From positions 1 to 26,614 of IMG/VR virus record IMGVR_UViG_3300018080_000526: a DNA stretch of 26,614 bases; one strand, written 5' to 3'. A program made the position numbers and the translations under genes. The stretch comes from a virus. Under the pieces are notes generated by a model, which ran no database searches, was not told where the DNA came from, and saw only the letters and a list, made by a program, of their open reading frames with translations. Shown here piece by piece: positions 6,832 through 26,614 of the stretch. How positions within the stretch are numbered: the stretch's first letter is position 1; each line of letters starts with the position of its first letter.

Positions 6832-7788
6832 ATGCTTGTTATCGCTGAGATAGGATCCAACTGGAAATCCCTCGATACGATTTTAAGATCGATCGACATG
6901 GCGAAATTATGTGGAGCGGATGCCGTCAAGCTTCAGCTGTACGACCATCAAAAGCTCTATGGATATAGGCGCCGGATGGCTGGATGCCTTGAACCTCACC
7001 ATGTTCAGCATGCGTCGGAAAGAGCTAGAGAGAATGGGCTGAAGTTCATCCTATCGGTTTTCGATCCGAATGACGTTTGGGAGGTGAGGAGCCACGTCGA
7101 TTATATAAAAATCGCATCTTCGAATAGCTCTGATGTCCTTCTGCTCCAGTCTGCTGCCGAGTGCGACAGGCCAATCATACTTTCTACAGGAGCATCTAGC
7201 ATATCGGATATCAGAAGATCCCTAGGCACGATTTCCAGCATTCGCAATGATGATATGGATACGACTCTCATGTATTGCGTGAGTTCTTATCCCTCCGTCG
7301 AAAATGATCTGTCGGTGATATCGCTCCTGAGGATAGAGTTCGGCCTTCCTGTGGGCCTGTCGGATCATTCGCTGGACGTGTTCAACTCTCCGGTTATTGC
7401 AAAGGATGTATACGGTTGCAGCATGATTGAGAAGCATTTCAAGATTTCAAACATGGGAACGCCTGATTCTGGACATTCCCTTGGCATGCATGACTTCGAG
7501 CGGATGACGAGGCGTCTTGCTTCAGGCATGCCTCGCGAGATGCCGAAGTGCGAAGGGGAAGAACACATGCTTTTGAAAAATAAAGTCAGGCTTGTTGCGA
7601 TCGATTCGATCGATCCAGGCGATACGTTTTCATATGGAAAAAATTTCGGAATTTTTCGCTCGAAAGAGCCTTGCGAAGATCCGATGTCACCATATGAATG
7701 GATGAGCGTAGATAACGCAAAATGCTGTGGATTTCTTTCCATAGGCGACTCGATAAGGCGTGTGCATGTAGAGGGCTTGAAAGATTGA
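6832..7788 (+). CDS. NeuB/PseI-type nonulosonic acid synthase
   Basis: The 318-residue protein matches sialic/pseudaminic/legionaminic acid synthases, which join phosphoenolpyruvate to a six-carbon amino sugar to make a nine-carbon acid. Visible motifs are VIAEIGSNW (3-11), GADAVKLQLYD (28-38), FILSVFDPND (72-81), YIKIASSN (91-98), RPIILSTG (113-120), MYCVSSYPS (147-155), GLSDHS (175-180), EKHF (200-203) and GHSLGMHDFERM (214-225). The last 70 residues form a SAF-like domain (FLSIGDSIRR), so the gene is complete. I chose the ATG at 6832 with GAGG nine bases upstream; an ATG at 6823 has none. Substrate class cannot be told from sequence alone. It lies between a virion gene and terminase, so it is expressed late. 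Confidence 0.9.
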   Translation: MLVIAEIGSNWKSLDTILRSIDMAKLCGADAVKLQLYDHQKLYGYRRRMAGCLEPHHVQHASERARENGLKFILSVFDPNDVWEVRSHVDYIKIASSNSSDVLLLQSAAECDRPIILSTGASSISDIRRSLGTISSIRNDDMDTTLMYCVSSYPSVENDLSVISLLRIEFGLPVGLSDHSLDVFNSPVIAKDVYGCSMIEKHFKISNMGTPDSGHSLGMHDFERMTRRLASGMPREMPKCEGEEHMLLKNKVRLVAIDSIDPGDTFSYGKNFGIFRSKEPCEDPMSPYEWMSVDNAKCCGFLSIGDSIRRVHVEGLKD

Positions 7789-9110
7789 GATCATTTAAGG
7801 CTCACAGTCTCAAGCAGTCTACGGCCCTATTTTCACAGAAAAAGATCACGATAGCTGCCACAGGAGTTCAATGGGGGAAAACCATTTTAGGTGTCGTGTG
7901 GCTAAAGATGCTGATGCATCAGTTCAATGATCCGGAAGATGCCTTTATTGTTACCAGCCCGACTTACAAGATCCTGTCGCAATCTACCCTACCGCCATTT
8001 TTGAGGATGAATGAAGATATAGGGAAGTACCACGGGCAGGAGAGTTCATTTCAAATTCGCGGAGGCGGAAAGGTCTGGTTCAGGACAAACCATGATCCAG
8101 ATTCTGTTGTCGGAATAACAAACGTTCGAGGGATCCTTTGCGACGAAGCCGGAAAATATTCGAGATACTTTTGGGACAATATTCAAGCGCGTTCGAGCAT
8201 CTGCAAGGCGCCAGTGATGATCGTAACGAGTCCATACTCGTTGAACTGGCTCTACAAGGATTTCATCAAAAAATGGATGGCTGGAGACGAGCACGTTCAT
8301 CAAATTGCAAATATCGTCATGGCCAGATCGGATGAAAATCCTTATTTCCCTAAAGAAGAATATGAAGAGCGAAAGTTGACGATGGATCCGCGCCGGCACA
8401 ACATGATATACGGCGGGAAATTCGAGAAGGCCGAAGGACTTGTCTACAGCCATTTTGATGAGAAAATTCACGTCGTAGAACCATTTTCTTTACCGCACGG
8501 GACGAGATATTTTGCAGGCGTGGATTGGGGGTATACGGATCCATTTGTAATAAAAGTCAGGGCCATCACGCCCGATGGAACTCACTACTCGATTGCAGAA
8601 TTTTATAAAACCCAGCTGAGAAGCGGGAAGATGGTTGAAGCTGCGGCGAGATTTGCCTCAATGTGGCCTATCGAGACTTTTTTTTGTGACCCGTCACGGC
8701 CTGACTACATATCTGAATTTTGTGCGCATGGCTTGACTGCTGTCGGAGCAACAAACGCCATACAGATGGGAATAGACAGGCACCATGAACTTATCATTTC
8801 TGATCGATACTACGTATTCGCTGGAACATGCAGGTACACGCTTGACGAGTACGAGATGTATCACTATCCCGAGGAAAAAGAATTGAACCCAAATCAGGAC
8901 GGAAAGGACGAACTTCCGGTCGATCAAGCGAACCACTGCATGGACTGTGAACGGTATGTCACATATGGGACATGGGATGTTGTGAAAAGAAGAAAACGTG
9001 ATATAATCACCGGGATAAAAACAAATGATGCGTTTTTTCCGGCTGCTCCTGATGACAGGAAGTTGTTAAAAGAGAAAAAATATTGGGAAAAGGATGGATA
9101 TTTCGAATGA
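7785..9110 (+). CDS. terL: Terminase large subunit
   Basis: The packaging motor: ATPase and RuvC-like nuclease domains. Numbering from the TTG at 7785, Walker A is TGVQWGKT (26-33), Walker B is GILCDEAG (116-123) and the coupling motif is VTSP (147-150). The nuclease acids are D247 (GVDWGYTDP), D302 (CDPSRPD) and D380 or D387 (DQANHCMDCERY). The TTG overlaps the neuB-like stop as TTGA and has GAGGG ten bases upstream. It leaves the usual short lead (FKAHSLKQSTALF) before Walker A. An ATG at 7722 would give 462 residues but lacks a ribosome site and overlaps neuB by 67 bases. Length is normal for the family. Confidence 0.93.
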   Translation: MRSFKAHSLKQSTALFSQKKITIAATGVQWGKTILGVVWLKMLMHQFNDPEDAFIVTSPTYKILSQSTLPPFLRMNEDIGKYHGQESSFQIRGGGKVWFRTNHDPDSVVGITNVRGILCDEAGKYSRYFWDNIQARSSICKAPVMIVTSPYSLNWLYKDFIKKWMAGDEHVHQIANIVMARSDENPYFPKEEYEERKLTMDPRRHNMIYGGKFEKAEGLVYSHFDEKIHVVEPFSLPHGTRYFAGVDWGYTDPFVIKVRAITPDGTHYSIAEFYKTQLRSGKMVEAAARFASMWPIETFFCDPSRPDYISEFCAHGLTAVGATNAIQMGIDRHHELIISDRYYVFAGTCRYTLDEYEMYHYPEEKELNPNQDGKDELPVDQANHCMDCERYVTYGTWDVVKRRKRDIITGIKTNDAFFPAAPDDRKLLKEKKYWEKDGYFE

Positions 9111-9442
9111 TATACCCCTATCACTGCGAATGTGGACACGACTTTGAGGTATACAAACCGGTTGGCGACATTGAAAACCAAGAGATGTGTCCGAAATGCA
9201 ATGCTGTAGCAATGCGCGTTATCGCACGTAAAGGCCATTTTTACGGCGCAAAAGTCGAGGACGCAGAGTACTGCCCAGCGATGGGTTGCGTCGTCAAAAA
9301 TCAGAAACATCGCAGGCAGCTGGCAAGGGATCGAGGAATGGTAGAGGTAGGGAACGACAGCGGCGAATATTTCAAGCGAATGGAGCGGGACAAGCAAAAA
9401 GAAACCGAAAAATTTTATGATGAGGTTGCAAGGGGAATTTGA
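9107..9442 (+). CDS. FmdB-like zinc-ribbon protein
   Basis: The start is the ATG at 9107, overlapping the terminase stop as ATGA. The 111-residue product begins with a zinc ribbon, YHCECGHDFEVYKP then MCPKCNAVAMRV (cysteines 7, 9, 28 and 31), as in the FmdB regulatory family. The C-terminal half is charged and helical (KRMERDKQKETEKFYDE). Such small ribbon proteins are common between terminase and portal genes of metagenomic podoviruses. Role unknown; nucleic-acid or head-protein contact is plausible. Confidence 0.7.
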   Translation: MIYPYHCECGHDFEVYKPVGDIENQEMCPKCNAVAMRVIARKGHFYGAKVEDAEYCPAMGCVVKNQKHRRQLARDRGMVEVGNDSGEYFKRMERDKQKETEKFYDEVARGI

Positions 9443-9582
9443 TGCCAATTTCTCTTATTGAAGAGCATAAAATAATTTTTGATTGCCAAAAATATTTTGA
9501 AATGAAGCTGATGCTTCAGATCGCTGCGGGAATAATCGCTTGGTATTTAATAACATATTTAAATAAATGCGCCAAAAAATAA
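9442..9582 (+). CDS. 46-residue single-pass membrane protein
   Basis: The ATG at 9442 overlaps the preceding stop (TGATG) and has AGGGG upstream. The product, MPISLIEEHKIIFDC to KCAKK, has one membrane helix around residues 24-40 (MLQIAAGIIAWYLITYL) and a short basic end. A holin or other lysis-timing role is possible but unproven; its place between terminase and portal is not the usual lysis position. Confidence 0.6.
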   Translation: MPISLIEEHKIIFDCQKYFEMKLMLQIAAGIIAWYLITYLNKCAKK

Positions 9583-9604
9583 TTATGGGTTGGGAACTTG
9601 CATA

Positions 9605-11467
9605 ATGACTTTTGAAACAATCAACATCGAAAACGAGTATGGATCATCCGAACTGGATGGCAGAGGCCCGGATATTGACGACGAAGAGGCTTCCGAAGTC
9701 AGAAAGTTCATGAAGGAATTCTACCGGTACAAGAAGTACAGGAGCAGGTACGACAAGAACTACATGGACTACTACAAGATGTTCAGAGGCGTGCAATGGT
9801 CCTCTAGACGCCCATACTGGCGGAACTCAGAGATCATCAACATGATCTGGCAAGTCATACAGTCTCAGGTTCCTCTTCAAACCGATGTTCGCCCTACATG
9901 GGAATTCGTTGCCAAGGAGCCGAACGACGTAGAATTCGCCGATATCCTCAACTCAATTGCAAAAAGTGATTTCGGTCAAAAAAACTGGATGAACGTGCTG
10001 CTTGAAGTTATTTATGACGGATGGATCTACGGGACATCCTACAGTTCAATGGAATTCGATCCCTCTTTGGATCATGGGCTCGGTTCCGCTGTATTCAGGT
10101 CTGAAGATCCGTTTTATTGCTATCCGGATCCAGCATCAACTGACGTCAATTGCCCTGACAGCAGAGGTTTCTTCCGGGCGAAGCCGATTGAGACATCACG
10201 TTTGAGGGAAATGCATCCTGATCGAGCTGACATGATCAAGCCTGATGTTCGTGATATCGTTCGCAAGGAACGGACTGAACTCAAGGATTTCAAACTCACT
10301 CATTTTTCCAGCGATGTCGATCTTCCTGAAGGCACGTACGGATCGATCTGCGACAATTCGAAGACCGACATGACTTTCGTGATCGATGGATGGTTCCTTC
10401 CGAAAGAAACGGTCGAGGAGGAATTCGAGGAGGAAGGAGAGGATGGAAGGCTGACAAAAAAATTCCGGATAATGAGGAAATGGCCGAGAGGCCGAAGGAT
10501 CAGGATTGCGAACGGAATGATGCTTATCAACAGGGAACTAGACTATGAGGACGGCCTGATTCCATTTTCCAAGTACAACAATTATATACTTCCGCGTGAA
10601 TTTCATGGGGTGAGCGAGGTTGAGCAGCTCGAAAGTCCACAAAAGATTTTTAACAAGATGGTCTGCTTCACGCTCGACGCCTACGCGATGACTGGAAATC
10701 CAGTTTGGATCGTCGATAGAAATTCCGGAGTAGACACTGATTCAGGAATCGTGAATGTCCCCGGATCCATAGTCGAGAAAAATCCGAATACGGAAGTCAG
10801 GCGACTAGATGGAGCTTCAATTGCTCCCGGCGCACTTGGAATCATTGACCGATTGGAATCCTGGTTCAATACGAACGCCGGCATATCCGACTTGCAATCA
10901 GGAGAGGCTCCAGGAGGAGTCACTGCTGCAAGCGCGATCGAACAGTTGATATCAATCCAGCGTACGCGGATCCGGCAGAAGCAGCGAAACCTGGACACGT
11001 ATATGAAAACAGTCGGGCGTCAATACATGAACCGCGTTTTGGAATTTTATTCTGTGCCAAAGATATTTAGAATAACAGCCAAAGATGGATCAATCATTTT
11101 TCGAAAATTCCGAATCGATCGAGAGGCGGACGAGCAGGGCAGGATGATGCGTGTAGCTGTGTGGCAAGACGTCAAAAAAGATGATTCGGACGATAGTCAG
11201 GACGTAAAAATGGTTGAACTGCCGGTCAAAAGGCTCATAATCAAAGGTGATCTTGACATAGATGTAAAAAGCGGTTCCAGCTTGCCGTTCGAAATAGCAG
11301 ACATCGAAAGAAAATCGTTCGCGCTTTTCGATCGAAACATAATTGACGAGGAAGAAATTCTGGAACGTCTCGATGTGCCGAATAGGGAAAGGATCCTTCA
11401 GAGGCTTCAGGAGCGAAGGGAAATGATTGCGGCACAAGAGCAACAGCAGCAGCAGCAGAAGGGATGA
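9605..11467 (+). CDS. Portal (head-tail connector) protein
   Basis: The 620-residue protein has the size, position and motifs of podovirus-type portals, which form the dodecameric ring at the packaging vertex. It opens acidic, then YDKNYMDYYKMFRGVQW and INMIWQVIQSQVPLQT, and the core DPFYCYPDPAS segment. Near residues 435-450, GGVTAASAIEQLISIQRTR is the conserved portal helix. The C-terminus is charged and ends in a CAG-coded glutamine run (11440-11459). The start is taken at ATG 9605; TTG 9590 is in frame but less likely. Directly upstream are terminase and small genes. Confidence 0.9.
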   Translation: MTFETINIENEYGSSELDGRGPDIDDEEASEVRKFMKEFYRYKKYRSRYDKNYMDYYKMFRGVQWSSRRPYWRNSEIINMIWQVIQSQVPLQTDVRPTWEFVAKEPNDVEFADILNSIAKSDFGQKNWMNVLLEVIYDGWIYGTSYSSMEFDPSLDHGLGSAVFRSEDPFYCYPDPASTDVNCPDSRGFFRAKPIETSRLREMHPDRADMIKPDVRDIVRKERTELKDFKLTHFSSDVDLPEGTYGSICDNSKTDMTFVIDGWFLPKETVEEEFEEEGEDGRLTKKFRIMRKWPRGRRIRIANGMMLINRELDYEDGLIPFSKYNNYILPREFHGVSEVEQLESPQKIFNKMVCFTLDAYAMTGNPVWIVDRNSGVDTDSGIVNVPGSIVEKNPNTEVRRLDGASIAPGALGIIDRLESWFNTNAGISDLQSGEAPGGVTAASAIEQLISIQRTRIRQKQRNLDTYMKTVGRQYMNRVLEFYSVPKIFRITAKDGSIIFRKFRIDREADEQGRMMRVAVWQDVKKDDSDDSQDVKMVELPVKRLIIKGDLDIDVKSGSSLPFEIADIERKSFALFDRNIIDEEEILERLDVPNRERILQRLQERREMIAAQEQQQQQQKG

Positions 11468-11470
11468 AAG

Positions 11471-11512
11471 ATGGGATGCAAGAAGGGCGGAAAGAAACCA
11501 AAGAAAAGATGA
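11471..11512 (+). CDS. 13-residue Lys-rich mini-ORF
   Basis: An ATG at 11471 with GAAGGG about 11 bases upstream encodes MGCKKGGKKPKKR and ends at TGA 11510-11512, between portal and the next gene. I recall comparable tiny Cys/Gly/Lys peptides at the same place in other phage genomes, but cannot verify that here. It may be a true miniprotein that binds DNA or acidic head proteins, or only a translational coupler. Confidence 0.35.
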   Translation: MGCKKGGKKPKKR

Positions 11513-11522
11513 AAGGCGAGTC

Positions 11523-11792
11523 ATGGACGGACAGGAAATGAATCAGGGCCAAGCAAATCCTCAGAATCTTCCGGGTGACATACTGGTAGGCATGAATGCT
11601 GTCGGCCAGGCTGCTCAGGATGCTGGAGCACCGCAAGAGCTTCTTCAAATTCTTATGCAGTCTATTCAGCTGTACCAGCAATTCCTCGAAGGAATGAGCC
11701 AAGGGCAAGGGCAAGGGCAAGGGCAAGGGCAGGGAGGCGTGAGCCGGGTCAATACCATGGGCGAGGTTGCCAGCCCTGCAGGAGTACGATGA
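11523..11792 (+). CDS. Gln/Gly-rich small head-region protein
   Basis: Taking the ATG at 11523 (AAAGGCGAG upstream) gives 89 residues. A helical middle (ILVGMNAVGQAAQDAGAPQELLQILMQSIQLYQQFLEGM) is followed by a (GQ)n tract encoded by CAAGGG repeats and a short tail. It sits between portal and scaffold, where podoviruses carry small assembly proteins. No family name assigned. Longer versions of the frame start inside the portal gene and are rejected. Confidence 0.6.
   Translation: MDGQEMNQGQANPQNLPGDILVGMNAVGQAAQDAGAPQELLQILMQSIQLYQQFLEGMSQGQGQGQGQGQGGVSRVNTMGEVASPAGVR
11700..11735 (+). repeat. CAAGGG hexamer microsatellite
   Basis: Five perfect CAAGGG hexamers (11700-11729) and one CAGGGA lie inside a coding sequence and encode Gln-Gly repeats. 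The unit is a multiple of three, so copy-number slips would change protein length without frameshift. Confidence 0.8.
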
Positions 11793-11805
11793 TAAGGATC
11801 TTTTG

Positions 11806-12678: not shown

Positions 12679-12699
12679 CATTCCATGGAGGAATGGATC

Positions 12700-13623
12700 A
12701 TGGCCGTATCGATAGATCAGTTGACTGCCATTACGCACAAGAAAATTCTACCACGTCTATATGACAACATTTTCGACAGCAATATTCTTCTCAAACGCAT
12801 GTTGAAAAGCGGACAATATGTCCCCATTGACGGAGGGGCAACCATCGACGTTCCTCTGAACTACGCAACAACCACAGCATCTGGCTGGTATCAGGGTGCC
12901 GAGACTCTTAGCACAACTGATAATGAGAATATCTCGGCTGCGCGCTATAACTGGAAGTCCGCATATGCGGGAATTTCCATCACTGAAGAGGACGAGCTGA
13001 AGAACTCTGGCAATGCCGGTGTTTTGAAGCTGCTCGCATCGAAAGCGATGATTGCCGAGAAAACCTTGAAGGATACTCTGGGAACCGGTCTATACAGTGA
13101 TGGGACTGACACAAAATCAATCGTCGGGCTGCGGGACATTTGTGCGACAGATCAGACTGTCGGAGGAATTTCGCAGGCAACCAACTCATGGTGGCAGGCT
13201 CAAGTCGATTCTACAAGCACGACTCTCACTATGTCTGTCCTTCAATCTCTGTACGAGGATGCCACCGTAGACGTCGAAAAACCGACGGTTGTGACCGCAA
13301 CTCGCGCGAACTACAACCGTTACTACAACCTTCTGCAGCCGCAGCAGCGGTTCACGGACGACATGACTGCGCGAGGAGGTTTTCAGAACCTCATGTTCAA
13401 CGGTGTACCTTTCGTGTCAGACAGCTATACGCCGGCGAATCATGTTTTTATGCTGAATGAAAAACACCTGTTCTTGTGGTATCAGCCGCAGCGAAATTTC
13501 AGCGCAGAAGCGTTTCAAAAGCCGATCAACCAGCAGGTTAAGGTCAGCAGGATCATTTGGATGGGTTCTTTTGGATCATCTAACAACAGGCTGCATGCCG
13601 CCGCTACAGCACTCGCTGCTTAA
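12700..13623 (+). CDS. Major capsid protein
   Basis: The 307-residue protein matches a family of phage major capsid proteins presumed to have the HK97 fold. It has MAVSIDQLTAITHKKILPRL at the N-terminus, then an IDVPLNYATTTASGWYQGAETL segment, then YAGISITEEDELKNSGNAGVLKLLASK, then IVGLRDI, a VTATRANYNRYYNL helix and a C-terminal IIWMGSF strand. The start is ATG 12700, seven bases after GGAGG. An upstream ATG at 12685 has no ribosome site. It lies between scaffold and decoration candidate, as expected. Confidence 0.9.
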   Translation: MAVSIDQLTAITHKKILPRLYDNIFDSNILLKRMLKSGQYVPIDGGATIDVPLNYATTTASGWYQGAETLSTTDNENISAARYNWKSAYAGISITEEDELKNSGNAGVLKLLASKAMIAEKTLKDTLGTGLYSDGTDTKSIVGLRDICATDQTVGGISQATNSWWQAQVDSTSTTLTMSVLQSLYEDATVDVEKPTVVTATRANYNRYYNLLQPQQRFTDDMTARGGFQNLMFNGVPFVSDSYTPANHVFMLNEKHLFLWYQPQRNFSAEAFQKPINQQVKVSRIIWMGSFGSSNNRLHAAATALAA

Positions 13624-13635
13624 GGAGGATCGAAA

Positions 13636-14145
13636 ATGACTTTTTATTCGCAGAACCCTGTTTTGTTTTATGGCATCTCGCATGTAACGGCTACTCTCAG
13701 CAGCAAGCATCCTGAAGTAGGTACAAGAATCACTCATGACGGTGAGGAATACGTTTGGGCATACCATGATTGCAATTCGGATATTGCTCCATCCTACATG
13801 GTACAGCTGCAGTCCGGAGCAACCGGCATGAGCGTGACTATCACCAACACGACGAATACGGGTCTTCCTGTCGGCATCGTCAAACATGCGACTCTCACAA
13901 CGAACACCTACGGATGGTTGCTCACGAGGGGTCACGCGACGGTCGAGATGACTGCGAACTCCGGAACCGTTGCTGTGAACGGATACCTGACCGTCGGTGC
14001 AAACGGAACAGCCGCTCCGTCATTGGTGCAGACAGCTCTCACTACAACCGATGGTGCGACCATCGAAACGATGCAGCCGATCGGGCAAGCTATGGCCGCG
14101 ATCGTTTCTTCGGCATCTGGCTCAGCGTATGTTTCACTTTATTGA
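13636..14145 (+). CDS. Capsid decoration or head-stabilising protein candidate
   Basis: The 169-residue protein starts 12 bases after the capsid stop, with TAAGGAGG, one of the strongest ribosome sites in the window, suggesting high expression. It is Thr/Gly/Ala-rich and beta-structured, with a hydrophobic, regular C-terminus (QPIGQAMAAIVSSASGSAYVSLY) typical of small head proteins. A gene at this position commonly encodes the capsid decoration protein. The many Thr/Ser residues, and the DUF115 gene that follows, make it a possible target for sugar attachment; this is inference. Confidence 0.6.
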   Translation: MTFYSQNPVLFYGISHVTATLSSKHPEVGTRITHDGEEYVWAYHDCNSDIAPSYMVQLQSGATGMSVTITNTTNTGLPVGIVKHATLTTNTYGWLLTRGHATVEMTANSGTVAVNGYLTVGANGTAAPSLVQTALTTTDGATIETMQPIGQAMAAIVSSASGSAYVSLY

Positions 14146-14166
14146 TTTTTGATTTTGGAGATTTTC

Positions 14167-15186
14167 ATGGATGTGAGAAACATCATCGTCGAACTGAAAC
14201 CATATATACCTCACGCGCCAATTGCTGTAGGCGACGCTCACAGGAGGGCTTGCAGCAATGATCAGGTGACGATGGAAAAATGGACTGAGACATGGGTTTC
14301 CAACATTCGGGAAAATAAGAAGCGCTACTCTTCCTTTGCAGAGCATTCTGTTGGTTCACTATTTGGCACGTTCTCACCCAGACCTTGCATTATCGCAGGG
14401 TCTGGGCCTTCCTTAAAAAAGAGCATCGGCATGCTAAAGGATCGCCCTGAGGACATGCATCTTGTCTCATGCCTGCACAATTTCCACTACATGGAGGATC
14501 ATGAGGCAAATCCTGACTTTTATGTGTCGCTTGATGCCGGCGAAGTGACGATCGATGAGGTTTCCGAAGGTGGAAAACGGGATCCTGAAGAGTACTGGGA
14601 AATAACGAAAAATCGAAAACTTCTCTGCTATATCGGGACAAGCCCAAAGCTTCTTGAAAAATGGCAGGGCGAGGTCTTTTTTTTCAACGCACCCGTTCCG
14701 CACGATGATTTCAGAAGCCGTGTCCGCGAAATCGAGGATTTCAACGTCTGGGTTGAGTCCGGCGGGAACGTTTTAGGAGCCGCGACCATGATCGCGAAGG
14801 GCTTTCTCGGGAGCCAGATCAGCATATTCATTGGTTCAGATTTTTGTTTTTCAAATGAGGAAAAGCGCACCTTTCATTCCTGGGACTCAAAATATGATGC
14901 CGAGATGGGACAGTGCATCAGGGCTGTGGATATCTATGGGAATTCTGTCACAACATGGCCGAGCTATCTGAATTTCAAACTGTGGTTCGATTGCGTTGCT
15001 CAACGGATCCCTGGAATTTACATCAACAGCTCGTCACAAGGGTGCATGGGATCATACCCCGAGGGAAACATCCAGCAGATCGTACAAATGCCGCTGAAAA
15101 GCGCATATGAAATGTTTACTGTACACCATCATAAACGCAAGCAGGCTGAAGATCCTTCGCAGCCAAGCGATGTTGTTTATATTTAG
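14167..15186 (+). CDS. DUF115/Maf-like protein (putative nonulosonate glycosyltransferase)
   Basis: The 339-residue protein has the DUF115 core of motility accessory factor (Maf) and MptE-like proteins. PRPCIIAGSGPSLKKSI (71-87) is the nucleotide-sugar or phosphate loop. NPDFYVSLDAG (115-125) follows, then ESGGNVLGAATMIAKGF (197-213), and IFIGSDFCF (220-228) corresponds to the Maf 'GxDxx' strand. VDIYGNSVTTWPSYLNFKLWF near residues 255-275 matches the next Maf segment. In bacteria Maf proteins attach pseudaminic or legionaminic acid to flagellin Ser/Thr; MptE-like members act on pterins. The ATG at 14167 follows TTGGAGA. Its place in the middle of the head operon suggests virion proteins as acceptors. 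Confidence 0.75.
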   Translation: MDVRNIIVELKPYIPHAPIAVGDAHRRACSNDQVTMEKWTETWVSNIRENKKRYSSFAEHSVGSLFGTFSPRPCIIAGSGPSLKKSIGMLKDRPEDMHLVSCLHNFHYMEDHEANPDFYVSLDAGEVTIDEVSEGGKRDPEEYWEITKNRKLLCYIGTSPKLLEKWQGEVFFFNAPVPHDDFRSRVREIEDFNVWVESGGNVLGAATMIAKGFLGSQISIFIGSDFCFSNEEKRTFHSWDSKYDAEMGQCIRAVDIYGNSVTTWPSYLNFKLWFDCVAQRIPGIYINSSSQGCMGSYPEGNIQQIVQMPLKSAYEMFTVHHHKRKQAEDPSQPSDVVYI

Positions 15187-15195
15187 GAGAAGAAA

Positions 15196-15465: not shown

Positions 15466-15468
15466 TTC

Positions 15469-15822: not shown

Positions 15823-15823
15823 G

Positions 15824-17176: not shown

Positions 17177-17178
17177 AA

Positions 17179-17844: not shown

Positions 17845-19738
17845 ATCTACTGTTGTTTATCCTGAACGCGGAAGGATCGGGCTCGATGGAGGTCTGAACA
17901 ACAAGTTTGACAGGCAGTGGATCTTGGAAAACGAGACTCCGGATTGCCAGAATGTCATATTCGGCCAGAATTCCGTCGAGACACGAGGAGGAACATCACT
18001 TCTCAACACTGCTCCAGTCGGATCCTTCATATGCGACGGACTTTATGTCCGGCACGATTCATCCGGCGCTGAAACGATGGTCGGATGGTGGGACGGAACT
18101 CTGTACGATCTTCAGGGAACATCATTCATCTCAGTGACCTCGGCGAAATGCATTTTCACAGCTGGCGTAAAAGTTCATTCGACGGAATACGAGAACTACC
18201 GATTCTTTACGAACGGATCGAACCCCATGTACAAATGGAACGGTTCGGAGTTCACGCGAGGTTCAGTCCCGGCTCCAGATTCAACTATGACGGCAGCAAC
18301 GGCGCCTACAGGAACAGCTTTGTCCGGTGTCTATAGCTATAAGGTCACATACGTCAACAGCAATCTGGTCGAATCGGACGTCTCGCCGGTTTCGAATACG
18401 ATCACGGTTGCATCTCAGGATGTCAGGCTGACATCGATCCCGGTTGCTCCGGCATCATTTGGTGTGAACAGCAGAAGGCTGTACAGAACTGAGGACGGAG
18501 GATCGTCATATCTCAGACTTGCGACCATATCCGATAACACTACAACTACATACGACGATGGCATTGCGGACGCATCGCTTGGCGTGGAGGCGCCGACGGA
18601 TCAAGGCGAGATTCCGACGACGGCGACATCGCTCATATTTCATCAAGGCAGGATTTTCTGCATCGACACGGCTGACAATCTTGTCAAATACTCTGAAATC
18701 GGAAACCCATATGTTTTCAAGGCGACGAGTTTCAGGCGTCCGGGAGATACAAGCGGAGACATTCCAAAAGCTCTCGGTATTTACGAAAACAGCGTGTTCG
18801 TTGGATGTGTTCGATCTAACTGGCTCATATACATGCCGGATGCAGATGATACGAACTGGGTTGATATCCGGATAAAGTCTCCATACGGTTGCAAGAGCCC
18901 GTTCGGACTGTTCAACTACAACAACAGGCTCATGTTTCCGGCGATGGAAAACGGAAAATTTGTCGGATTCGCTGCGATCGCTGGAGCGACAGTTGAGCCA
19001 ACGACGACTCTTCTGACTGTTTCAGCAGCCGGATCGGATCTTAAGTCCAACGTGATTTCTGAAGATATGGACATGATCCCGGAATCAAGAGTCCCGAACA
19101 TATCCGCTGTTGTTTTTGGGAAAAACGCATATATAGCTGCGACATATGAATCAGGATCGACAAACAACAGGATATATTTATTCGACTATTCGTTCGAAAA
19201 TCTGTCTAAGAAGCAGGAGTTCGCATGGTCGAGATGGACAGGCCTGAATCCTGCTCATTTTGTCGTATACGACGGAAAACTATATCATGCGTCCGATGAT
19301 GATGTCGGAAGCGTGTACCTGATGAACACCACGACTTACAACGATTCAGGCACTGCGATAGATTCCTACTACTGGACAAAAGATTTTTCAGGAAAGCCAG
19401 GGCATGAAAACATGTCGAAGGATTTTCGATGGATTTCCATCCTTCACGAGCAATCCGGCGACTACTACATGACTCTGACAAAACGAATAGACTCGACCGG
19501 AGGCGTAGGATCCACAGATCAAATCGATTTGGATCCGATAACTTCCGTATGGGGAACCATGCGCTGGGAAGAAGACGAATGGTCCGCCGGAGGCGAGCAG
19601 ACAGAATCAAGAATCAGTCTCGGTGATCTTGCGGTCGCTAAAAGGATCCAGCTCAAGTTCGACAATCAAAACGCAATCAATCAGAAATTCAAAATAATCG
19701 GCATCAACCTTGAGTACAATATAAGGGGGAGACGTTAA
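17834..19738 (+). CDS. Podovirus tail nozzle / stabilisation-like protein
   Basis: Taking GTG 17834 (GAGG nine bases upstream) gives 634 residues; ATGs at 17813 and 17819 are alternatives. The N-terminus GRIGLDGGLNNKFDRQWILENETPDCQNVIF, then SVETRGGTSLLN, matches large podovirus tail proteins of the nozzle or P22 gp10-like type. The body reads as repeated beta-propeller-like blades (LIFHQGRIFCID, NSVFVGCVRSNWLIYM, GLFNYNNRLMFPAMENGKFVGFA, VVYDGKLYHAS). A fibronectin-like insert, SGVYSYKVTYVNSNLVESDVSPVS, is near residues 170-195. Position directly after the adaptor supports a tail-end role. Confidence 0.7.
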   Translation: MVSKSTVVYPERGRIGLDGGLNNKFDRQWILENETPDCQNVIFGQNSVETRGGTSLLNTAPVGSFICDGLYVRHDSSGAETMVGWWDGTLYDLQGTSFISVTSAKCIFTAGVKVHSTEYENYRFFTNGSNPMYKWNGSEFTRGSVPAPDSTMTAATAPTGTALSGVYSYKVTYVNSNLVESDVSPVSNTITVASQDVRLTSIPVAPASFGVNSRRLYRTEDGGSSYLRLATISDNTTTTYDDGIADASLGVEAPTDQGEIPTTATSLIFHQGRIFCIDTADNLVKYSEIGNPYVFKATSFRRPGDTSGDIPKALGIYENSVFVGCVRSNWLIYMPDADDTNWVDIRIKSPYGCKSPFGLFNYNNRLMFPAMENGKFVGFAAIAGATVEPTTTLLTVSAAGSDLKSNVISEDMDMIPESRVPNISAVVFGKNAYIAATYESGSTNNRIYLFDYSFENLSKKQEFAWSRWTGLNPAHFVVYDGKLYHASDDDVGSVYLMNTTTYNDSGTAIDSYYWTKDFSGKPGHENMSKDFRWISILHEQSGDYYMTLTKRIDSTGGVGSTDQIDLDPITSVWGTMRWEEDEWSAGGEQTESRISLGDLAVAKRIQLKFDNQNAINQKFKIIGINLEYNIRGRR

Positions 19739-20685
19739 TGGCTATTGCAAGCGATGCTGTGACACGCAGGTATGAACTCCTCAGGAAACGGGCGAGGCAG
19801 GAAACTCAGGCGTCAACTCAAGCTCAACAGGAAGCTCTTCGCAGGCGGTTTGCATCGATCGGGAGCCTTGGATCAGGAGCTGCAATAAAATCAGAGCAGC
19901 TTGCTGCAGAGGCTGGAGCAAAACAATATCGAAAAGCGGCTGAAGACATCGGCATGCAAGAGCAGGCTGAAAGGCAAAGGCTTCAGGAGATTGAAGAGGC
20001 TCGCAAATATCAGACATCCGAGCGTGAAGCTGGACAGGCTTTCGGCGCAGAGCAGGCGGAAAAATCCAGGCTTTTCGCAACCGGCGAGCGGATTGGAGGC
20101 CAGCAGTTTGCAGGCCAGCAGGCGGCGCTTCAAAGGCGATTTGCAACCAGCGAGCGGATTGGAGGCCAGCAGTTCGCCGGCCAGCAGGCATCTTTGCAGA
20201 GATCGTTCCAGAGAGGCGAAAGGCTTGGCGCACAGGATTTTGCTGCAGGCGAGTCCGCAGCGCAGAGAGCCATTCAGGAGAGGGCTTTGACGGAGCAGGA
20301 GAGGGCGGCAAAGGCTGGCGAGGCGTTCGCAGAAAAACAGCTGCTGGTTCAGAAAGATCAGTTCAATGAACAAATCCAGCAAACGGCACTGAGCAGAGAG
20401 ATGCAGGAGCGAATAGCGACCGCTGATAGGGAATGGCAAAAATATGTATTCAATAAGGAATTTCCTGAAAATGTTCGAATAGCGAACGCAAATATCGCAA
20501 CTCAGCGGCAATTGATCGAGCAGGGCGGAGGTGGAGTATTCGAATCGATTTTCGGAAGAAATTCCGAAGGTCAGATATTCCCAGGGATCACAAGCGGGAG
20601 CCGTGATGTACAGACTATTGCACGGTATGCCAACCCGATTATTACCGGGACAAGCAATATTGTTTCAAAAGCATTAGGACTTTAG
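19738..20685 (+). CDS. Internal virion/ejection protein with 22-residue repeats
   Basis: Starts on the last base of the previous stop (TAATG). The 315-residue protein is almost all charged helix, rich in Gln, Ala, Arg and Glu. Residues about 113-178 hold three copies of a 22-residue unit (F-A-x-x-E-R-I-G-G-Q-Q-F-A-G-Q-Q-A-x-L-Q-R-x), the third degenerate. The C-terminus is less regular (GGGGVFESIFGRNSEGQIFPGITSG). Placement after the nozzle and before two further helical proteins is like internal core proteins that leave the capsid to form a DNA ejection conduit. Confidence 0.55.
   Translation: MAIASDAVTRRYELLRKRARQETQASTQAQQEALRRRFASIGSLGSGAAIKSEQLAAEAGAKQYRKAAEDIGMQEQAERQRLQEIEEARKYQTSEREAGQAFGAEQAEKSRLFATGERIGGQQFAGQQAALQRRFATSERIGGQQFAGQQASLQRSFQRGERLGAQDFAAGESAAQRAIQERALTEQERAAKAGEAFAEKQLLVQKDQFNEQIQQTALSREMQERIATADREWQKYVFNKEFPENVRIANANIATQRQLIEQGGGGVFESIFGRNSEGQIFPGITSGSRDVQTIARYANPIITGTSNIVSKALGL
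20074..20271 (+). repeat. Three tandem 66-bp coding repeats
   Basis: Units begin at 20074, 20140 and 20206. The first two share almost all bases, including GAGCGGATTGGAGGCCAGCA; the third is diverged but keeps frame and spacing (FQRGERLGAQDFAAGESAAQ). The 66-bp length equals 22 codons, so gain or loss keeps the reading frame. The high identity of copies 1 and 2 points to a recent duplication. Confidence 0.8.
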
Positions 20686-20699
20686 GTTGGAGGCTGAAA

Positions 20700-22177: not shown

Positions 22178-23937
22178 TGGGCAAGCTCAACCAGGCTGAT
22201 GTTCAGGCGCTCGACATCCTCGTGTCCGGGACTGAGGACGAGGATACGAACCTTGCAATCCGCGACAAGCTCGGTCTGAATGACGATGACATCCGTGCAT
22301 ATTCGGAATCGCGTAATGTAGATCCCGAGATTGCTGAAGCAGTGCAGACAAAAATCTATGACAAGATACGATCCCAGAAAGACCGTACTGGCATTACGCA
22401 AGAGCGTGCAATCTGGGAGGGTCTGAAGCAGGGCGTGACGTTCAAATGGTCGGATGAGATTGAATCATCATGGGATACTATGAAGGAGTATTTTTCCAAG
22501 GGCGGTGACTATAGCGAAATATATGAACGGAAGGTCAAAAAAAAGCGCGAAGACATCAAGGCTCTGGAAAAGAGATATCCTCTCAACTTTATTGCCTCTG
22601 AGATCATTGGAGGGCTTGCGGTTCCTATTCCCGGAGCGAGCCTAAAGTCGGCTGCGACGCTTGGGAAACTGGCACTCGAATCCGCTGCGACGGCAGCAGG
22701 AGCAGCGGACGCTCCAGTCATGTCCGGTAAATTTCTTGAGCAGACTGCGGCCGGAACGGCGATCGGCGTCGCAGGAGGAGCCCTGCTTGGAGGAGTCGCG
22801 AAAGGAGCGTCCAAGCTGGTCGAAAAGGGCGCCAGTCCTACAAAAAAAGCTGCGATGGCTGTCAGCAACATCCTTTTTGATCTTCCTCCAGCCTATACGG
22901 AGAGGCTGTTGGATCCTCGGACTGCCAAGAAAATTCTTGATCCGAAAAGCCCGGAGCAGATAGTCGACACGATCGAGGATCTTGTATCCAGGATGTCTGA
23001 TGATGCGGAAGCCTTGAGCATGAAGGCCCAGAGCTTTTTATCAAGAAAGTTTGATATCGACACGAACAGAATCGTGAGGGATCTGAATGATCTTCCTTCA
23101 ATGAACAGGATCGAGCGCAGCACTATGGGAGAAGCGGAAGCTGCGAAGAAAGAACTGGATAGGTCGATGGCCGACTTACTCAACAGATCGAAAGATGGAA
23201 TGATATCCGAGAAAAACCTGAAGCAGTTCATACAGGATATCGATCTGGAAATTCCGTGGAACAAGAACGAATGGAAACTTAAGGACAGGATCCTTTCTGA
23301 AATACGTGCAGAGGTTGACAACTATGTTCTGAAGGGCGGAAATAAGAAGTATGCAGAGGCGATGATCCCAGTCGCTGAAATCATGCGGAACAGGGCAGAA
23401 ATTTCAAAATCATTCTCTCTCAAGAGGAAGGGATATAAGGCTGTTCCGACCGATGCGACTTTTTCTAAAGTCAGGAATTTCTACAACGTTGCTGGGAAAT
23501 CGAAAAAGCCTGTCAGCGAGAAGGCCCTTGCGAAGGCGGATGAACGATATGGAAAATCCATATTGGAAGACATTGAGATAGGGCAAATTGCTGCAAGAAC
23601 CGAGGGCGGCATGGCCGCAGGATCGAAAAACGTCCTTCTTGGGCTTGCCATGGGAAGCATGTTCGGTGCGTCAATTTGGGGAGCTGTTGCTGGCGCTGTA
23701 AAGGACAAGTATGGCCGGAAACTTGGGAAGCAGTTTATTCCAAAACTTGAGAAATCGATAAAATTTTCTGACGACAAGATTGAAGAAATGTTCGATGTGA
23801 TCGATCCGAAGATCGTCGAGCGTGTTTTGCAGACATATGGGCGTTTCGCAGGATCTGAAAAGGGCGTCGAGGGAGTTCAGGCGCCAAGGCCGACATCGAT
23901 AATTCCAATTCAACAGCCATCTTTTGGAGGACGATAA
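22177..23937 (+). CDS. Large internal/ejection protein with hydrophobic segments (586 residues)
   Basis: Overlaps the previous stop by one base (TGATGG). An N-terminal acidic helical part (1-65) is followed by a region with RAIWEGLKQGVTFKWSDEIES, which is seen near the start of some phage virion proteins. Hydrophobic Gly/Ala segments lie near residues 132-145 (FIASEIIGGLAVPIPG), 180-205 (AAGTAIGVAGGALLGGVAKGA) and 483-510 (VLLGLAMGSMFGASIWGAVAGAV). The middle is charged helix. Multiple membrane-active segments in a large soluble-type protein suit an ejection protein that inserts into the host envelope. No lytic transglycosylase motif was seen. Confidence 0.6.
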   Translation: MGKLNQADVQALDILVSGTEDEDTNLAIRDKLGLNDDDIRAYSESRNVDPEIAEAVQTKIYDKIRSQKDRTGITQERAIWEGLKQGVTFKWSDEIESSWDTMKEYFSKGGDYSEIYERKVKKKREDIKALEKRYPLNFIASEIIGGLAVPIPGASLKSAATLGKLALESAATAAGAADAPVMSGKFLEQTAAGTAIGVAGGALLGGVAKGASKLVEKGASPTKKAAMAVSNILFDLPPAYTERLLDPRTAKKILDPKSPEQIVDTIEDLVSRMSDDAEALSMKAQSFLSRKFDIDTNRIVRDLNDLPSMNRIERSTMGEAEAAKKELDRSMADLLNRSKDGMISEKNLKQFIQDIDLEIPWNKNEWKLKDRILSEIRAEVDNYVLKGGNKKYAEAMIPVAEIMRNRAEISKSFSLKRKGYKAVPTDATFSKVRNFYNVAGKSKKPVSEKALAKADERYGKSILEDIEIGQIAARTEGGMAAGSKNVLLGLAMGSMFGASIWGAVAGAVKDKYGRKLGKQFIPKLEKSIKFSDDKIEEMFDVIDPKIVERVLQTYGRFAGSEKGVEGVQAPRPTSIIPIQQPSFGGR

Positions 23938-25136
23938 TGTCAAACATAACAGTAACATATTCATTTACGAACGGCACATCGGCTGACGCGGATCAGGTCA
24001 ACCAGAATTTCACAGATATCTTGAACGGCCTTTCGGATGGAACTAAGGATATCTCGATATCCGCCATGACATGCGCGGGAACGGTGACATTGAACGGAAA
24101 CACGACCATAGGAAACGCCGCTACAGACACCATAACTGTGACAGGCAGGGTTTCCAGTGATGTATACCCTATTGCAAACAGCACTTATGATCTGGGATCA
24201 AGCTCGCTTTACTGGGCTGAATCCTACGTCACCACGCACTATATCGGCAGCAATGTCAGCATAAACGGGACATCTCCAGCTGCTAAAATCCATATACAGG
24301 GTTTGAACGGAGTTGAGAACGGTCTTCTCATATCGGGCGTGTCAGGAGATACATCCGGTGACGGCTATCATATCGGGTACGATTCGTCGAACAACTGCAG
24401 GGTATGGACAAAAGATGGGAACAACATCCTGATCGGCGTCGAAAACGTTGAAAAAGTCAAGTTTACGACGACAGCGATGACAATAAACGATCTTGGAAAC
24501 GACTATGATGTCATAATGAAAAGCAATAACGATGCAAACATGTTCTACCTCAATGGAGGCGACGACAGGATCGGAATAGGTACAAACCCGTCTGCAAAAT
24601 TTCATGTCCTTGAGAGCGTTGACAGTGCCGTTGCGGCGAAAATTGAGCAGACCGATGCTGACAACCCGTATGGTCTGAACATCGATTTTTCAGCAGGATC
24701 GCCGGATGACAATACGAGATGGTTTTTGGCCTGCGAGGATTCAACTGCGTCGCGATGCATCATTTACAGCGATGGGGACGTGTGGACGTCTGATGCTGGA
24801 ACATTGACATCAGATAAATCCTTCAAGGACAATATTGTCGACACAGAGCCTCAGAAGTCACGTCTCATGGGTCTTCGTGTGAGAAATTTCAAATGGAAGA
24901 AATCTTTTCATCCGAAGAAGGACAAGAAAAAGAATATCGGCTTCATCGCTCAGGAATTCGAAAGCCATTTTCCGGAATTCGTTTGCGAGGCGGAAATGAA
25001 GGTTGATGGCGAAAAAGTCGTGAAGAAGGGTATAAAATATACCGCCCTGGTTCCTGTGATCGTAAAGGCTTTGCAGGAGCAGGAAGATGATTTGACAGCG
25101 ATACGGGAAAGGCTTGATGCACTCGAGGCTTCTTGA
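23937..25136 (+). CDS. Tail fibre/spike with self-cleaving Peptidase_S74 chaperone
   Basis: The 399-residue protein begins with a short N-terminal module (SFTNGTSADADQVNQNFTDILNGL) common in phage fibres. A beta-rich shaft follows (TLNGNTTIGNAATDTITVTGRVSSDVYP, then IGIGTNPSAKFHV). From Ser292 onward it is a Peptidase_S74 intramolecular chaperone: SDKSFKDNI with the Ser292-Lys297 dyad, LMGLRVRNFKWKK, IGFIAQEFESHFPEFV, and YTALVPVIVKALQEQ ending in a coiled coil. Such domains drive trimer folding and cut themselves off just before the serine. This is probably the receptor-binding protein, although short. It is the last gene before the terminator at 25161. Confidence 0.8.
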   Translation: MSNITVTYSFTNGTSADADQVNQNFTDILNGLSDGTKDISISAMTCAGTVTLNGNTTIGNAATDTITVTGRVSSDVYPIANSTYDLGSSSLYWAESYVTTHYIGSNVSINGTSPAAKIHIQGLNGVENGLLISGVSGDTSGDGYHIGYDSSNNCRVWTKDGNNILIGVENVEKVKFTTTAMTINDLGNDYDVIMKSNNDANMFYLNGGDDRIGIGTNPSAKFHVLESVDSAVAAKIEQTDADNPYGLNIDFSAGSPDDNTRWFLACEDSTASRCIIYSDGDVWTSDAGTLTSDKSFKDNIVDTEPQKSRLMGLRVRNFKWKKSFHPKKDKKKNIGFIAQEFESHFPEFVCEAEMKVDGEKVVKKGIKYTALVPVIVKALQEQEDDLTAIRERLDALEAS

Positions 25137-25160
25137 TTTCATATTTCTACTATATTAATG

Positions 25161-25196
25161 CCGCCGGATTTTTTGTTGAATTCGGCGGTTTTTTTT
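25161..25196 (+). terminator. Strong terminator ending the virion operon
   Basis: CCGCCG (25161-25166) pairs with CGGCGG (25183-25188); the GAATTC near the second arm can extend pairing with the flanking GGATT. Eight T residues follow at 25189-25196. It lies 25 bases past the fibre stop and separates structural genes from the sugar genes downstream. Confidence 0.85.
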
Positions 25197-25236
25197 GGCA
25201 TGATGATTTTTTGGTTTTCGTTTGTGGATATATGAT

Positions 25237-25530
25237 ATGGATATTTGGTTTTTTATCAGTATTATTATGGCGATTCTGCTAATAGCATCAGTATCTTTCT
25301 CAATAATAATTTTTAGGCAATATATCAATATAAAATCTGAATTGATCCAAGAATCCCTGAATTGCAAATCTCTAATAAAAGAACTCGGGAAAGTGAAGGA
25401 ACGGCCCAAATCGGTTGAGCTGAAGGAATTTCTGGGTGATTTGATGAGGGGAGATGCTCTCATTTCGGTACATCGAATCGATGGTGCCGACATGTTTTCG
25501 TTCAGCCCAAAAGATAAGGGTATGCTATGA
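25237..25530 (+). CDS. Small membrane-anchored protein (97 residues)
   Basis: From ATG 25237 the protein has one strong membrane helix (WFFISIIMAILLIASVSFSIIIF, residues 4-26), then a helical, charged linker, then a small domain SVELKEFLGDLMRGDALISVHRIDGADMFSFSP at the C-terminus. A family of phage proteins with a similar 'EFL.DL..GDALI.V.RID...F..SP' end is familiar to me, but without function. An i-spanin-like role is conceivable from its layout; the C-terminal domain argues against it. No clear ribosome site; TTG 25222 is an alternative. Its stop overlaps the next start by ATGA. Confidence 0.55.
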   Translation: MDIWFFISIIMAILLIASVSFSIIIFRQYINIKSELIQESLNCKSLIKELGKVKERPKSVELKEFLGDLMRGDALISVHRIDGADMFSFSPKDKGML

Positions 25531-26363
25531 AATTTTTGATTGTTGGCGGGACTGGGACGCTTGGAAAAGAACTTATCAGGCGCTTTTATGACGATCATGA
25601 AATCGATGTTTTGAGCCGCGACGAGTTCAAGCAGGCCGCTTTGAGAAAGGTATACCCCAAAGCAGGATTTATTCTTGGAGACATCAGGGACTGGGTTCAA
25701 ATGAGCCCGATTTGCTATTCGCAGTATGACGCCGTTTTCCACTGCGCCGCTCTGAAACACGTCGATATAGGCGAAAGCAACGTCTCCCAGTTCGTTCAGA
25801 CGAATTATAATGGGACAGTCAACCTTGCAAAAAAATGCAAGGGGAAATCGAAACTCGTTTTTTTCTCAACAGACAAAGCAGTCCTTCCCATCAATGTGTA
25901 TGGAATGTCAAAAGCCCTTGGGGAAAGATATATCCAGAGCACTGATCCTGAGGCTGTGATCTTCAGGTGGGGGAATATTCTTGGATCAAGAGGATCGATC
26001 CTCGATTTTTTCGCGCAGCGGATTCAAGCAGGATCGACTGTTCCTATAACTGACATGCGGATGACTCGGTTCTGGCTCACGATAAACGAGGCGATCGATT
26101 ATGTCATGAAAAACTGGCAGAAGGGTATATCAAGAAATCCTCTCATACCTCCCGTGAAAAGCGCGTCTGTCGTCGATGTCGCCAAGGCGATAGGAGCGAT
26201 TTTAGGAAAGCCTGTAAAGATGAAGGAAATCGGAATCAGGCCTGGAGAGAAACTGCATGAGACTCTCAAGCATGATGCGAACTTCAGCCTGTCGTCGGAT
26301 ACATGCGAAAAGTTCGAAATGGATGAACTCATTGTAAAAATACGGCAGGTAATGAAGGAGTGA
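25527..26363 (+). CDS. PseB/CapD-type UDP-sugar 4,6-dehydratase (SDR)
   Basis: The 278-residue protein is a short-chain dehydrogenase of the PseB/FlaA1/CapD type, which converts UDP-GlcNAc to a 4-keto-6-deoxy sugar, the first step to pseudaminic and some legionaminic acids. GGTGTLGKE (7-15) binds NADP. SRDEFKQ (30-36), GDIRD (51-55) and HCAALKHVDIGESN (72-85) are family marks. STDKAVLPINVYGMSK (114-129) carries the PseB-type catalytic set D116, K117, Y125 and K129. MTRFW (179-183) is also diagnostic. It is about 50 residues shorter than typical PseB. Starts with ATGA overlap after the membrane protein; followed by an oxidoreductase 3 bases on. Confidence 0.87.
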   Translation: MKFLIVGGTGTLGKELIRRFYDDHEIDVLSRDEFKQAALRKVYPKAGFILGDIRDWVQMSPICYSQYDAVFHCAALKHVDIGESNVSQFVQTNYNGTVNLAKKCKGKSKLVFFSTDKAVLPINVYGMSKALGERYIQSTDPEAVIFRWGNILGSRGSILDFFAQRIQAGSTVPITDMRMTRFWLTINEAIDYVMKNWQKGISRNPLIPPVKSASVVDVAKAIGAILGKPVKMKEIGIRPGEKLHETLKHDANFSLSSDTCEKFEMDELIVKIRQVMKE

Positions 26364-26366
26364 TGC

Positions 26367-26614
26367 ATGATAGACATGCCGAGATACAATAAAAATGGAT
26401 CTGTGCTAGTTGTTGGCGGCAATGGGAACATGGGTCAGAGATATTGCAGGATCCTGTCAATGCTCAATGAAAAATGGCATAGCATAGATGTCGGCGAAAA
26501 CATTGGGACTGAGGCTTTTCATACCGGCATTAAGGGCGTAATAATCGCTACGCCAACTCAAAACCATATCAAATGTTGCTTTGATTATTTGAAATATCCG
26601 ATTTTGTGCGAAAA
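26367..26614 (+). CDS. Gfo/Idh/MocA-type oxidoreductase, N-terminal part
   Basis: The ATG at 26367 has GAAGGAG six bases upstream and the frame is open to the window end (82 codons). GSVLVVGGNGNMGQRYCRIL (11-30) is an NAD(P)-binding Rossmann loop. VIIATPTQNHIKCCFDYL, then LCEK at the edge, is the strand-helix-LCEK signature of Gfo/Idh/MocA sugar oxidoreductases. Such enzymes occur in nonulosonate and other surface-sugar clusters. Substrate unknown. The rest of the gene lies outside the window. Confidence 0.75.
   Translation, partial: MIDMPRYNKNGSVLVVGGNGNMGQRYCRILSMLNEKWHSIDVGENIGTEAFHTGIKGVIIATPTQNHIKCCFDYLKYPILCE

Follow-up and report, generated by a model that had tools for sequence, protein, structure and literature searches.

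The glycosyltransferases known as Maf place nonulosonic acids on surface Ser/Thr residues of flagellin, and their central domain (pfam01973) resembles Cst-II (PMC11339370). Maf and the genes that make its substrate are found together in the flagellar glycosylation island described in Aeromonas, where the group I version runs pseB-pseC-aldo/keto reductase-pseF-class III aminotransferase-pseG-pseH-pseI with maf nearby (PMC7874193). Two phage systems are also close. Mycobacteriophages Che8 and Rita carry glycans on capsid proteins, tied to phage glycosyltransferase genes (PMC11256854, PMC12619734), and EpaA/EpaB of Acinetobacter prophages are phage-encoded nonulosonate enzymes, one of them cytidylyltransferase-like (PMC12053666). 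Here we describe the virus record IMGVR_UViG_3300018080_000526, an entire contig of 26,614 bases (hereafter the window), which combines genes of nonulosonic acid biosynthesis with a Maf-like DUF115 gene beside the capsid genes. We think it rather probable that phages of this uncultured lineage encode most of the route to a pseudaminic-type sugar activated with cytidine monophosphate (CMP), and that a one-domain Maf-like transferase attaches it to the decoration protein or a neighboring virion protein.

Like the window and its relatives, the Aeromonas island combines PseB, a cytidylyltransferase with a class III aminotransferase directly after it, a GNAT acetyltransferase, a NeuB-type synthase and a PF01973 transferase. 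It differs in being bacterial, in adding a DegT aminotransferase and an aldo/keto reductase, and in a Maf that has an extra N-terminal domain (PF20157) and targets flagellin (PMC7874193). A scan for bacterial and archaeal loci with the phage aminotransferase, in which 80 loci of at least 573 confirmed were kept, led to the same place: among the matches listed, only the four best-scoring of the 80 loci have NeuB nearby, and these four also hold PseB-like and cytidylyltransferase-like genes within 8 kb. The one annotated among them, from Aeromonas rivipollensis (L095), contains PseB, DegT, an aldo/keto reductase, a cytidylyltransferase, a class III aminotransferase, a gene without Pfam match, GNAT, NeuB and Maf (PF20157 + PF01973). 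The Maf of Magnetospirillum (5mu5) shares the PF01973 core and CstII-like fold and is the best match of the phage transferase in both sequence and fold; unlike it, the phage protein has 345 amino acids (aa) and PF01973 alone, and its gene is linked to capsid rather than flagellin. The mycobacteriophages, with their capsid glycans, parallel what we propose here; our case differs by a putative nonulosonate route that has its own biosynthetic genes, and by a transferase of the Maf/CstII type. EpaA/EpaB differ in being two genes that convert pseudaminic acid of the host capsule, and the accessible part of that account describes neither synthesis of their own nor a capsid-linked transferase (PMC12053666). 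In the open-licence literature searched (titles and beginnings of abstracts, with some searches aimed elsewhere) we saw no account of phages whose capsid genes are tied to a nonulosonate pathway. We file the system as a variant of virion glycosylation, and neither as a member of the Pse pathway, since two features that define that pathway, PseC and PseG, were not detected, nor as a full-length Maf.

The genes on which this comparison rests are the following.

6823..7788, + strand: NeuB/PseI-like nonulosonic acid synthase, 321 aa (PF03102, E 2.7e-39), directly before the terminase gene TerL
12685..13623, + strand: major capsid protein (phrog_9953, E 1e-57)
13636..14145, + strand: capsid decoration protein by fold, likely glycan acceptor (AlphaFold2 (AF2) model from 31 sequences, mean predicted local distance difference test (pLDDT) 82)
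14149..15186, + strand: stand-alone Maf/CstII-type (PF01973, DUF115/MptE-like) putative glycosyltransferase, 345 aa (PF01973, E 4e-22)
25527..26363, + strand: PseB-like UDP-GlcNAc 4,6-dehydratase of the inverting type (PF02719, E 5.6e-64), start of the tail cassette
26367..26614, + strand: Gfo/Idh oxidoreductase, first 82 codons, truncated by the contig end (profile of relatives)

A preliminary description of this DNA had reported four families (NeuB, DUF115, PseB-like and Gfo/Idh) as a dispersed pathway. All four are where it placed them, Gfo/Idh as an 82-aa fragment, and the observation is confirmed. It had also listed an aminotransferase, an acetyltransferase and a CMP-synthetase as missing from the window; as the record is the whole contig, this means that they would lie past the contig end. 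We therefore turned to relatives. Starting from the capsid, we collected 14 viral loci, which an alignment search extended to 51 (L010 was left out of the capsid alignment), and ten long contigs of the lineage were examined for gene content. All ten hold the three missing classes at the corresponding place: a CTP_transf_3 cytidylyltransferase (10/10), a class III aminotransferase (PF00202, 10/10) and GNAT (10/10). DUF115 and the decoration gene are likewise present in all ten, PseB-like and NeuB genes in nine each, and Gfo/Idh in eight. Where present, the cassette genes are ordered PseB-like, Gfo/Idh, cytidylyltransferase, aminotransferase, GNAT. The suggestion to look for PseC, PseH and PseF thus recovered the three enzyme classes, although the aminotransferase is of class III and not of the PseC/DegT type.

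Seven of the ten long relatives are probably complete, since five (G008, G018, G019, G020 and G028) have exact end repeats of 114-123 bases and in two (G025 and G029) a repeat of 126 bases lies no more than ten bases from the contig ends. Five of these seven (G008, G018, G019, G020 and G025) hold all eight genes, namely PseB, Gfo/Idh, cytidylyltransferase, aminotransferase, GNAT, NeuB, decoration and DUF115. The co-occurrence expected from the preliminary description was thus recovered in related phages, although not in every genome: G028 lacks NeuB and G029 lacks PseB, while the remaining probably complete relatives have the full set. G028 (L086, L087) and G029 (L088, L089) still keep the cytidylyltransferase, the aminotransferase, GNAT and DUF115.

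For the dehydratase and GNAT the best family models are those of the Pse pathway, below their cut-offs. The top NCBIfam model of the PseB-like protein is PseB (E 8e-59, vs 1.6e-7 for LegB), the top match of its family profile in the PDB is the UDP-GlcNAc C6 dehydratase 2gn4 (E 4e-74), and D116, K117, Y125 and K129, which we take to be its catalytic columns, are kept in 66 of 66 sequences, a set that spans other phage groups. GNAT of two relatives has PseH as its top NCBIfam model (E 5e-19 and 3e-21), scoring 69 and 76 bits where the cut-off is 93; one further weak GNAT hit in G019 was excluded from the profile. The cytidylyltransferase has PF02348 in relatives and its top PDB match is the cytidylyltransferase 6oew (E 3e-31); no NCBIfam PseF model matched it. 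Lysine K251 of the class III aminotransferase is kept in all 48 sequences. The 82-aa Gfo/Idh fragment by itself has no Pfam match at E 0.01 and was assigned by the profile of its relatives, a profile that included the fragment itself. Gfo/Idh was rejected as an essential member of the set, being not found in two of the ten long relatives nor in one of the other phage groups (group C, below). The GC content of the sugar genes is like that of their neighbors, with the exception of the short Gfo/Idh piece.

The NeuB family profile aligns to the solved pseudaminic acid synthase 8h2c, its best PDB match (E 1.4e-57, compared to 1.7e-35 for SiaC), through the SAF region. K36, Q38, K96, Y156, H182, E203 and H205, presumably the catalytic columns, are kept in at least 50 of 51 sequences, other phage groups included. 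Position counts in this work refer to 53 contigs, window included and not dereplicated; contigs with less than 0.9 kb before TerL or less than 1.2 kb after the major capsid gene were not counted, and at 90% identity the 24 NeuB sequences form 21 clusters and the 47 DUF115 sequences 33. NeuB lies upstream of TerL in 21 of the 24 contigs with at least 0.9 kb there, at most 0.5 kb away in 19 contigs, 1.6 kb in L044 and 5.6 kb in G029. In the window the TerL reading frame as listed overlaps NeuB by 67 bases. The ratio dN/dS of NeuB is 0.06 and 0.16 in two pairs, consistent with purifying selection.

The gene between capsid and DUF115 encodes a protein (g13636) for which no sequence family was found, and its likely role comes from the predicted fold. 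The model matches a 131-residue HFTV1 capsid chain (Z 13.4, 113 residues aligned, 2.1 A), the small capsid chains of Pam3 (Z 11.3), T1 (Z 11.2) and Sf11, and the TW1 capsid stabilizing protein (Z 9.6); lambda gpD gives Z 5.6 and other small capsid chains Z 9-12. The decoration identity of these chains is taken partly from structure titles. The order major capsid protein, g13636 family, DUF115 was found in all 45 contigs that extend 1.2 kb or more past the capsid gene. In 18 of the contigs, chosen for having DUF115, the order is 18/18 and is not an independent count of presence. From this constant order we infer that the virion is the target of the sugar, as the preliminary description had proposed. 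Ser and Thr make up 20% of the g13636 family on average (ten relatives). Several small genes after DUF115 are also rich in Ser/Thr (21-25%), so that their products are candidate acceptors too. In two relatives the capsid gene itself is split (L018:8220-9396 and L017:9600-10776) into pieces of 242 and 73 aa about 230 bases apart; no Rfam match was found in L018.

By sequence and predicted fold, the DUF115 protein is closer to Maf than to a pterin enzyme. The window protein has PF01973 only, with no Pfam match to the Maf N-terminal domain PF20157, and the sole PDB sequence match of its profile below E 0.1 is the 5mu5 Maf (E 9e-4). A model from nine sequences (pLDDT 74.8) also matches 5mu5 best (Foldseek E 2e-8; Z 19.8 over 242 residues, 3.9 A), followed by the HPPK of M. 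jannaschii (Z 15.0), SteA (Z 10.8) and CstII sialyltransferases (Z about 8). In the best tree the phage sequences group with Maf and apart from eight archaeal MptE sequences (100/100). L187 (wrong frame) was dropped from both trees, L193, L180 and L174 (long branches) from the second, and L188 and L194 (weak) were never used. DUF115 has dN/dS of 0.05-0.07 in three pairs, compared to 0.03-0.11 for terminase, portal and capsid. Its maximal 19-residue hydropathy is 1.29, which means no strongly hydrophobic segment. It occurs together with the sugar genes in 11 of 11 lineage contigs and seven of seven sister contigs tested.

These sister contigs come from an alignment of the aminotransferase, which yielded 78 viral loci, 44 of them assigned to the type of the window and 10 of these already known. 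We refer to groups A, A', B and C, which were set by locus numbers, gene maps and reading frame length, not by a tree. All five cassette genes occur in 33 of the 44 window-type loci, and several of the misses are at contig ends. In seven sister contigs, selected for this arrangement, NeuB lies within about 4 kb of Gfo/Idh, the cytidylyltransferase and the aminotransferase. The genes of L227, and the first four of L249, have overlapping or abutting reading frames; in L244 NeuB and PseB are on the opposite strand. Since NeuB is grouped with the sugar genes there, the dispersed genes of the window look like one pathway, and the window layout like one arrangement of a linked gene set. The term dispersed in the preliminary description thus fits the window and not the sister contigs.

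A separate phage group (L250-L272), with contigs up to 77 kb, also has PseB, NeuB and Gfo/Idh. DegT was found in 15 of its 16 contigs tested, DUF115 was never over the cut-off, and in 22 loci the aminotransferase reading frame exceeds 560 aa. In L253, the one of these that was scanned, a cytidylyltransferase-aminotransferase fusion lies near PseB, DegT, NeuB with SAF, GNAT and methyltransferases. A fourth group (L238, L239, L241, L242) has the order NeuB-PseB-aminotransferase-GNAT-cytidylyltransferase near portal and capsid genes, with no Gfo/Idh hit, and no DUF115 in the three contigs tested. Long class III aminotransferase reading frames were also noted in L240 (9968-11728, 587 aa) and L233 (9962-11605, 548 aa), compared to the usual length of about 400 aa; neither has a Pfam intein match.

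From gene content, conserved order, conserved residues, selection and predicted folds we infer the following reactions, acceptor and benefit. The PseB-like enzyme would convert UDP-GlcNAc to a 4-keto-6-deoxy UDP-sugar, the class III aminotransferase would take over the job of PseC, and the PseH-like GNAT would acetylate the new amine. UDP could then be removed by a host enzyme or an unrecognized protein, after which NeuB would add phosphoenolpyruvate and the cytidylyltransferase would produce the CMP-sugar. Gfo/Idh probably tailors the sugar. The DUF115 protein would then act in the cytoplasm, linking the sugar to Ser/Thr of heads that are finished or still being assembled. The benefit could be a negatively charged or mimicking coat. 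Two points lead us to propose the class III enzyme as a replacement for PseC: the PseH-like enzyme would depend on a 4-amine, and groups A, A' and C possess the class III enzyme but show no DegT. The PseC-type DegT aminotransferase (PF01041) was not detected in any of 16 lineage contigs, nor in any of 11 others. A wider reading, in which the whole podovirus-like lineage is nearly self-sufficient in nonulosonic acids, with the class III enzyme for PseC and many decoration subunits coated via the one-domain Maf, is somewhat less likely than not, and the product would then perhaps be an unusual amino-nonulosonate.

Several results weigh against the reading that these phages make the sugar and put it on their virions. 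Searches for PseG gave no hit (PF04101 in 0 of 16 contigs, PF02350 in 0 of 36), and UDP hydrolysis must come from the host or from an unrecognized protein, perhaps an unrelated hydrolase. All NCBIfam matches of the sugar genes are under the equivalog cut-offs. The window NeuB is slightly short at 321 aa and has no separate SAF domain by Pfam; in sister contigs NeuB has only 211-235 aa, and the two scanned have no SAF domain. NCBIfam scores place the window NeuB slightly on the PseI side, while in both relatives tested the N-acetylneuraminate synthase model (NeuB_NnaB) slightly outscores the pseudaminic one; as the window and relatives point in opposite ways, reading the NeuB type from family scores was rejected. 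Three of the 24 contigs with room before TerL (L055, L075 and G028) have no NeuB there, with PF03102 finding none. Among the probably complete relatives, G028 is without NeuB and Gfo/Idh (again none found with PF03102), and G029 is without PseB and Gfo/Idh (no match better than E 0.69). A mere contig break as explanation of the PseB gap in G029 was rejected, given its 126-base end repeat and no trace of PseB. Finally, there is no close relative of the window among 50,697 phage records, and thus no virion of this lineage is known to have been examined.

The alternatives differ in who makes the sugar and where it goes. In one, which we consider rather unlikely, host PseC and PseG help make the core, and phage Gfo/Idh and the class III aminotransferase add an amino group, e.g. 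at C8, so that an 8-amino nonulosonate is placed on the virion. Bacterial islands have the class III aminotransferase and a reductase besides pseC and pseG (PMC7874193), which leaves the replacement of PseC not proven and counts against our proposal. Acinetobacter prophage genes of cytidylyltransferase-like and oxidoreductase-like types alter pseudaminic acid at C8 (PMC12053666), and an 8-amino-pentadeoxynonulosonic acid exists in the O-antigen of Flexibacter maritimus (PMC3210612). DegT in 15 of 16 contigs of another phage group, with the L253 fusion sitting near it, fits such a division of labor, and the two probably complete relatives without NeuB or PseB would need host supply anyway. However, groups A, A' and C are without DegT (0/21; 0/16 lineage contigs) and mostly have their own PseB-like and NeuB-like enzymes, groups A and C also carry GNAT, and group C (four loci) keeps the aminotransferase with no Gfo/Idh detected. 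It is improbable, in our view, that the sugar is put on the host surface or flagellin for receptor masking or phage exclusion, with DUF115 beside the capsid for expression timing only. Prophages are able to alter host glycans (PMC12053666) and Maf proteins normally modify flagellin (PMC11339370), but DUF115 following the capsid and decoration genes in all 45 contigs speaks against this reading, as does a DUF115 protein with no strongly hydrophobic segment (no search was made for membrane transferases, polymerases or flippases).

We regard it as very improbable that DUF115 is pterin diphosphokinase-like or has lost catalysis, the sugar genes serving something else. The second-best fold is indeed the HPPK of M. 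jannaschii (Z 15.0), and the approximately unbiased (AU) test keeps a grouping of phage and MptE sequences (p 0.27). This also counts against our reading, and the tree was rejected as proof of Maf origin. In addition, 19 contigs of the two other phage groups have sugar genes and no DUF115 match over the cut-off; the sugar route is therefore not always dependent on DUF115. Against this stand Maf as best match by sequence and fold, the strong purifying selection on DUF115, and its occurrence with the sugar genes in all 18 lineage and sister contigs tested (11/11 and 7/7). The preliminary description had preferred Maf to a pterin enzyme, which sequence and fold favor while the tree alone leaves the pterin side open. 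That the genes are chance neighbors, cargo or host contamination can practically be discounted; they are dispersed in the window, yet their positions are the same in dozens of contigs and they are under purifying selection, and so their recurrence is not chance, and their GC content is that of their neighbors apart from the short Gfo/Idh piece. Overall, the interpretation given in the preliminary description, with the virion glycosylated by a phage-encoded route, is supported.

The remaining gene content is that of a phage, with a RecE-like/RecT pair, terminase, portal, capsid, tail-region genes and an S74 fiber gene. Two features flank the sugar cassette.

23937..25136, + strand: tail/fiber protein with S74 chaperone domain (PF13884, E 1e-10), upstream border of the sugar cassette
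25222..25530, + strand: small protein with one hydrophobic stretch (19-residue hydropathy maximum 2.78 at residue 12), directly before PseB

The S74 "chaperone of endosialidase" domain was rejected as an argument for sialic acid, this domain being present in many phage fibers. Homologs of the small protein precede PseB in G008, G011 and G018, and its membership in the pathway is unproven. The RecE-like exonuclease and RecT pair lie at 803-2474 and a Hef/ERCC4-type nuclease at 4561-5064. The reading frame 2-676 on the minus strand matches replication initiation proteins and contains a 22-nt unit with a palindromic core in three tandem copies (128-195), possibly iterons of a lambda-O-like origin. 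A 66-nt tandem repeat (20068-20189) lies within the gene 19738-20685. TerL reading frames of 753-796 aa in L027 (13072-15345), L075 (2529-4787) and L065 (672-3059) point to probable terminase inteins in these relatives: the intein-splicing/Hint matches of L027 and L075 stay below the Pfam cut-off, and a LAGLIDADG match in L065 exceeds it. The window has no tRNAs, and an Rfam scan of the window, L018 and L240 gave nothing at gathering score. Neither a nucleotide search with positions 1-25000 nor a search with the DUF115 protein gave a match in the 50,697 phage records, where the nearest capsid relatives listed are about 30% identical. A search for prophages in genomes with the capsid protein, aimed at the host, confirmed none.

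Glycosylation of phage virions is known from few systems, linked with glycosyltransferases only in the parts of those accounts available. If our reading is correct, this bacterial virus has a built-in coat of acidic sugar, and a phage-borne biosynthetic route for a sialic-acid-like sugar, tied to the capsid genes throughout a large lineage, would allow direct tests of what phage coats are for. The system also provides a minimal Maf transferase whose acceptor is probably not flagellar, together with a candidate replacement for PseC. Such genes in viromes may thus not be solely modifiers of host surfaces.

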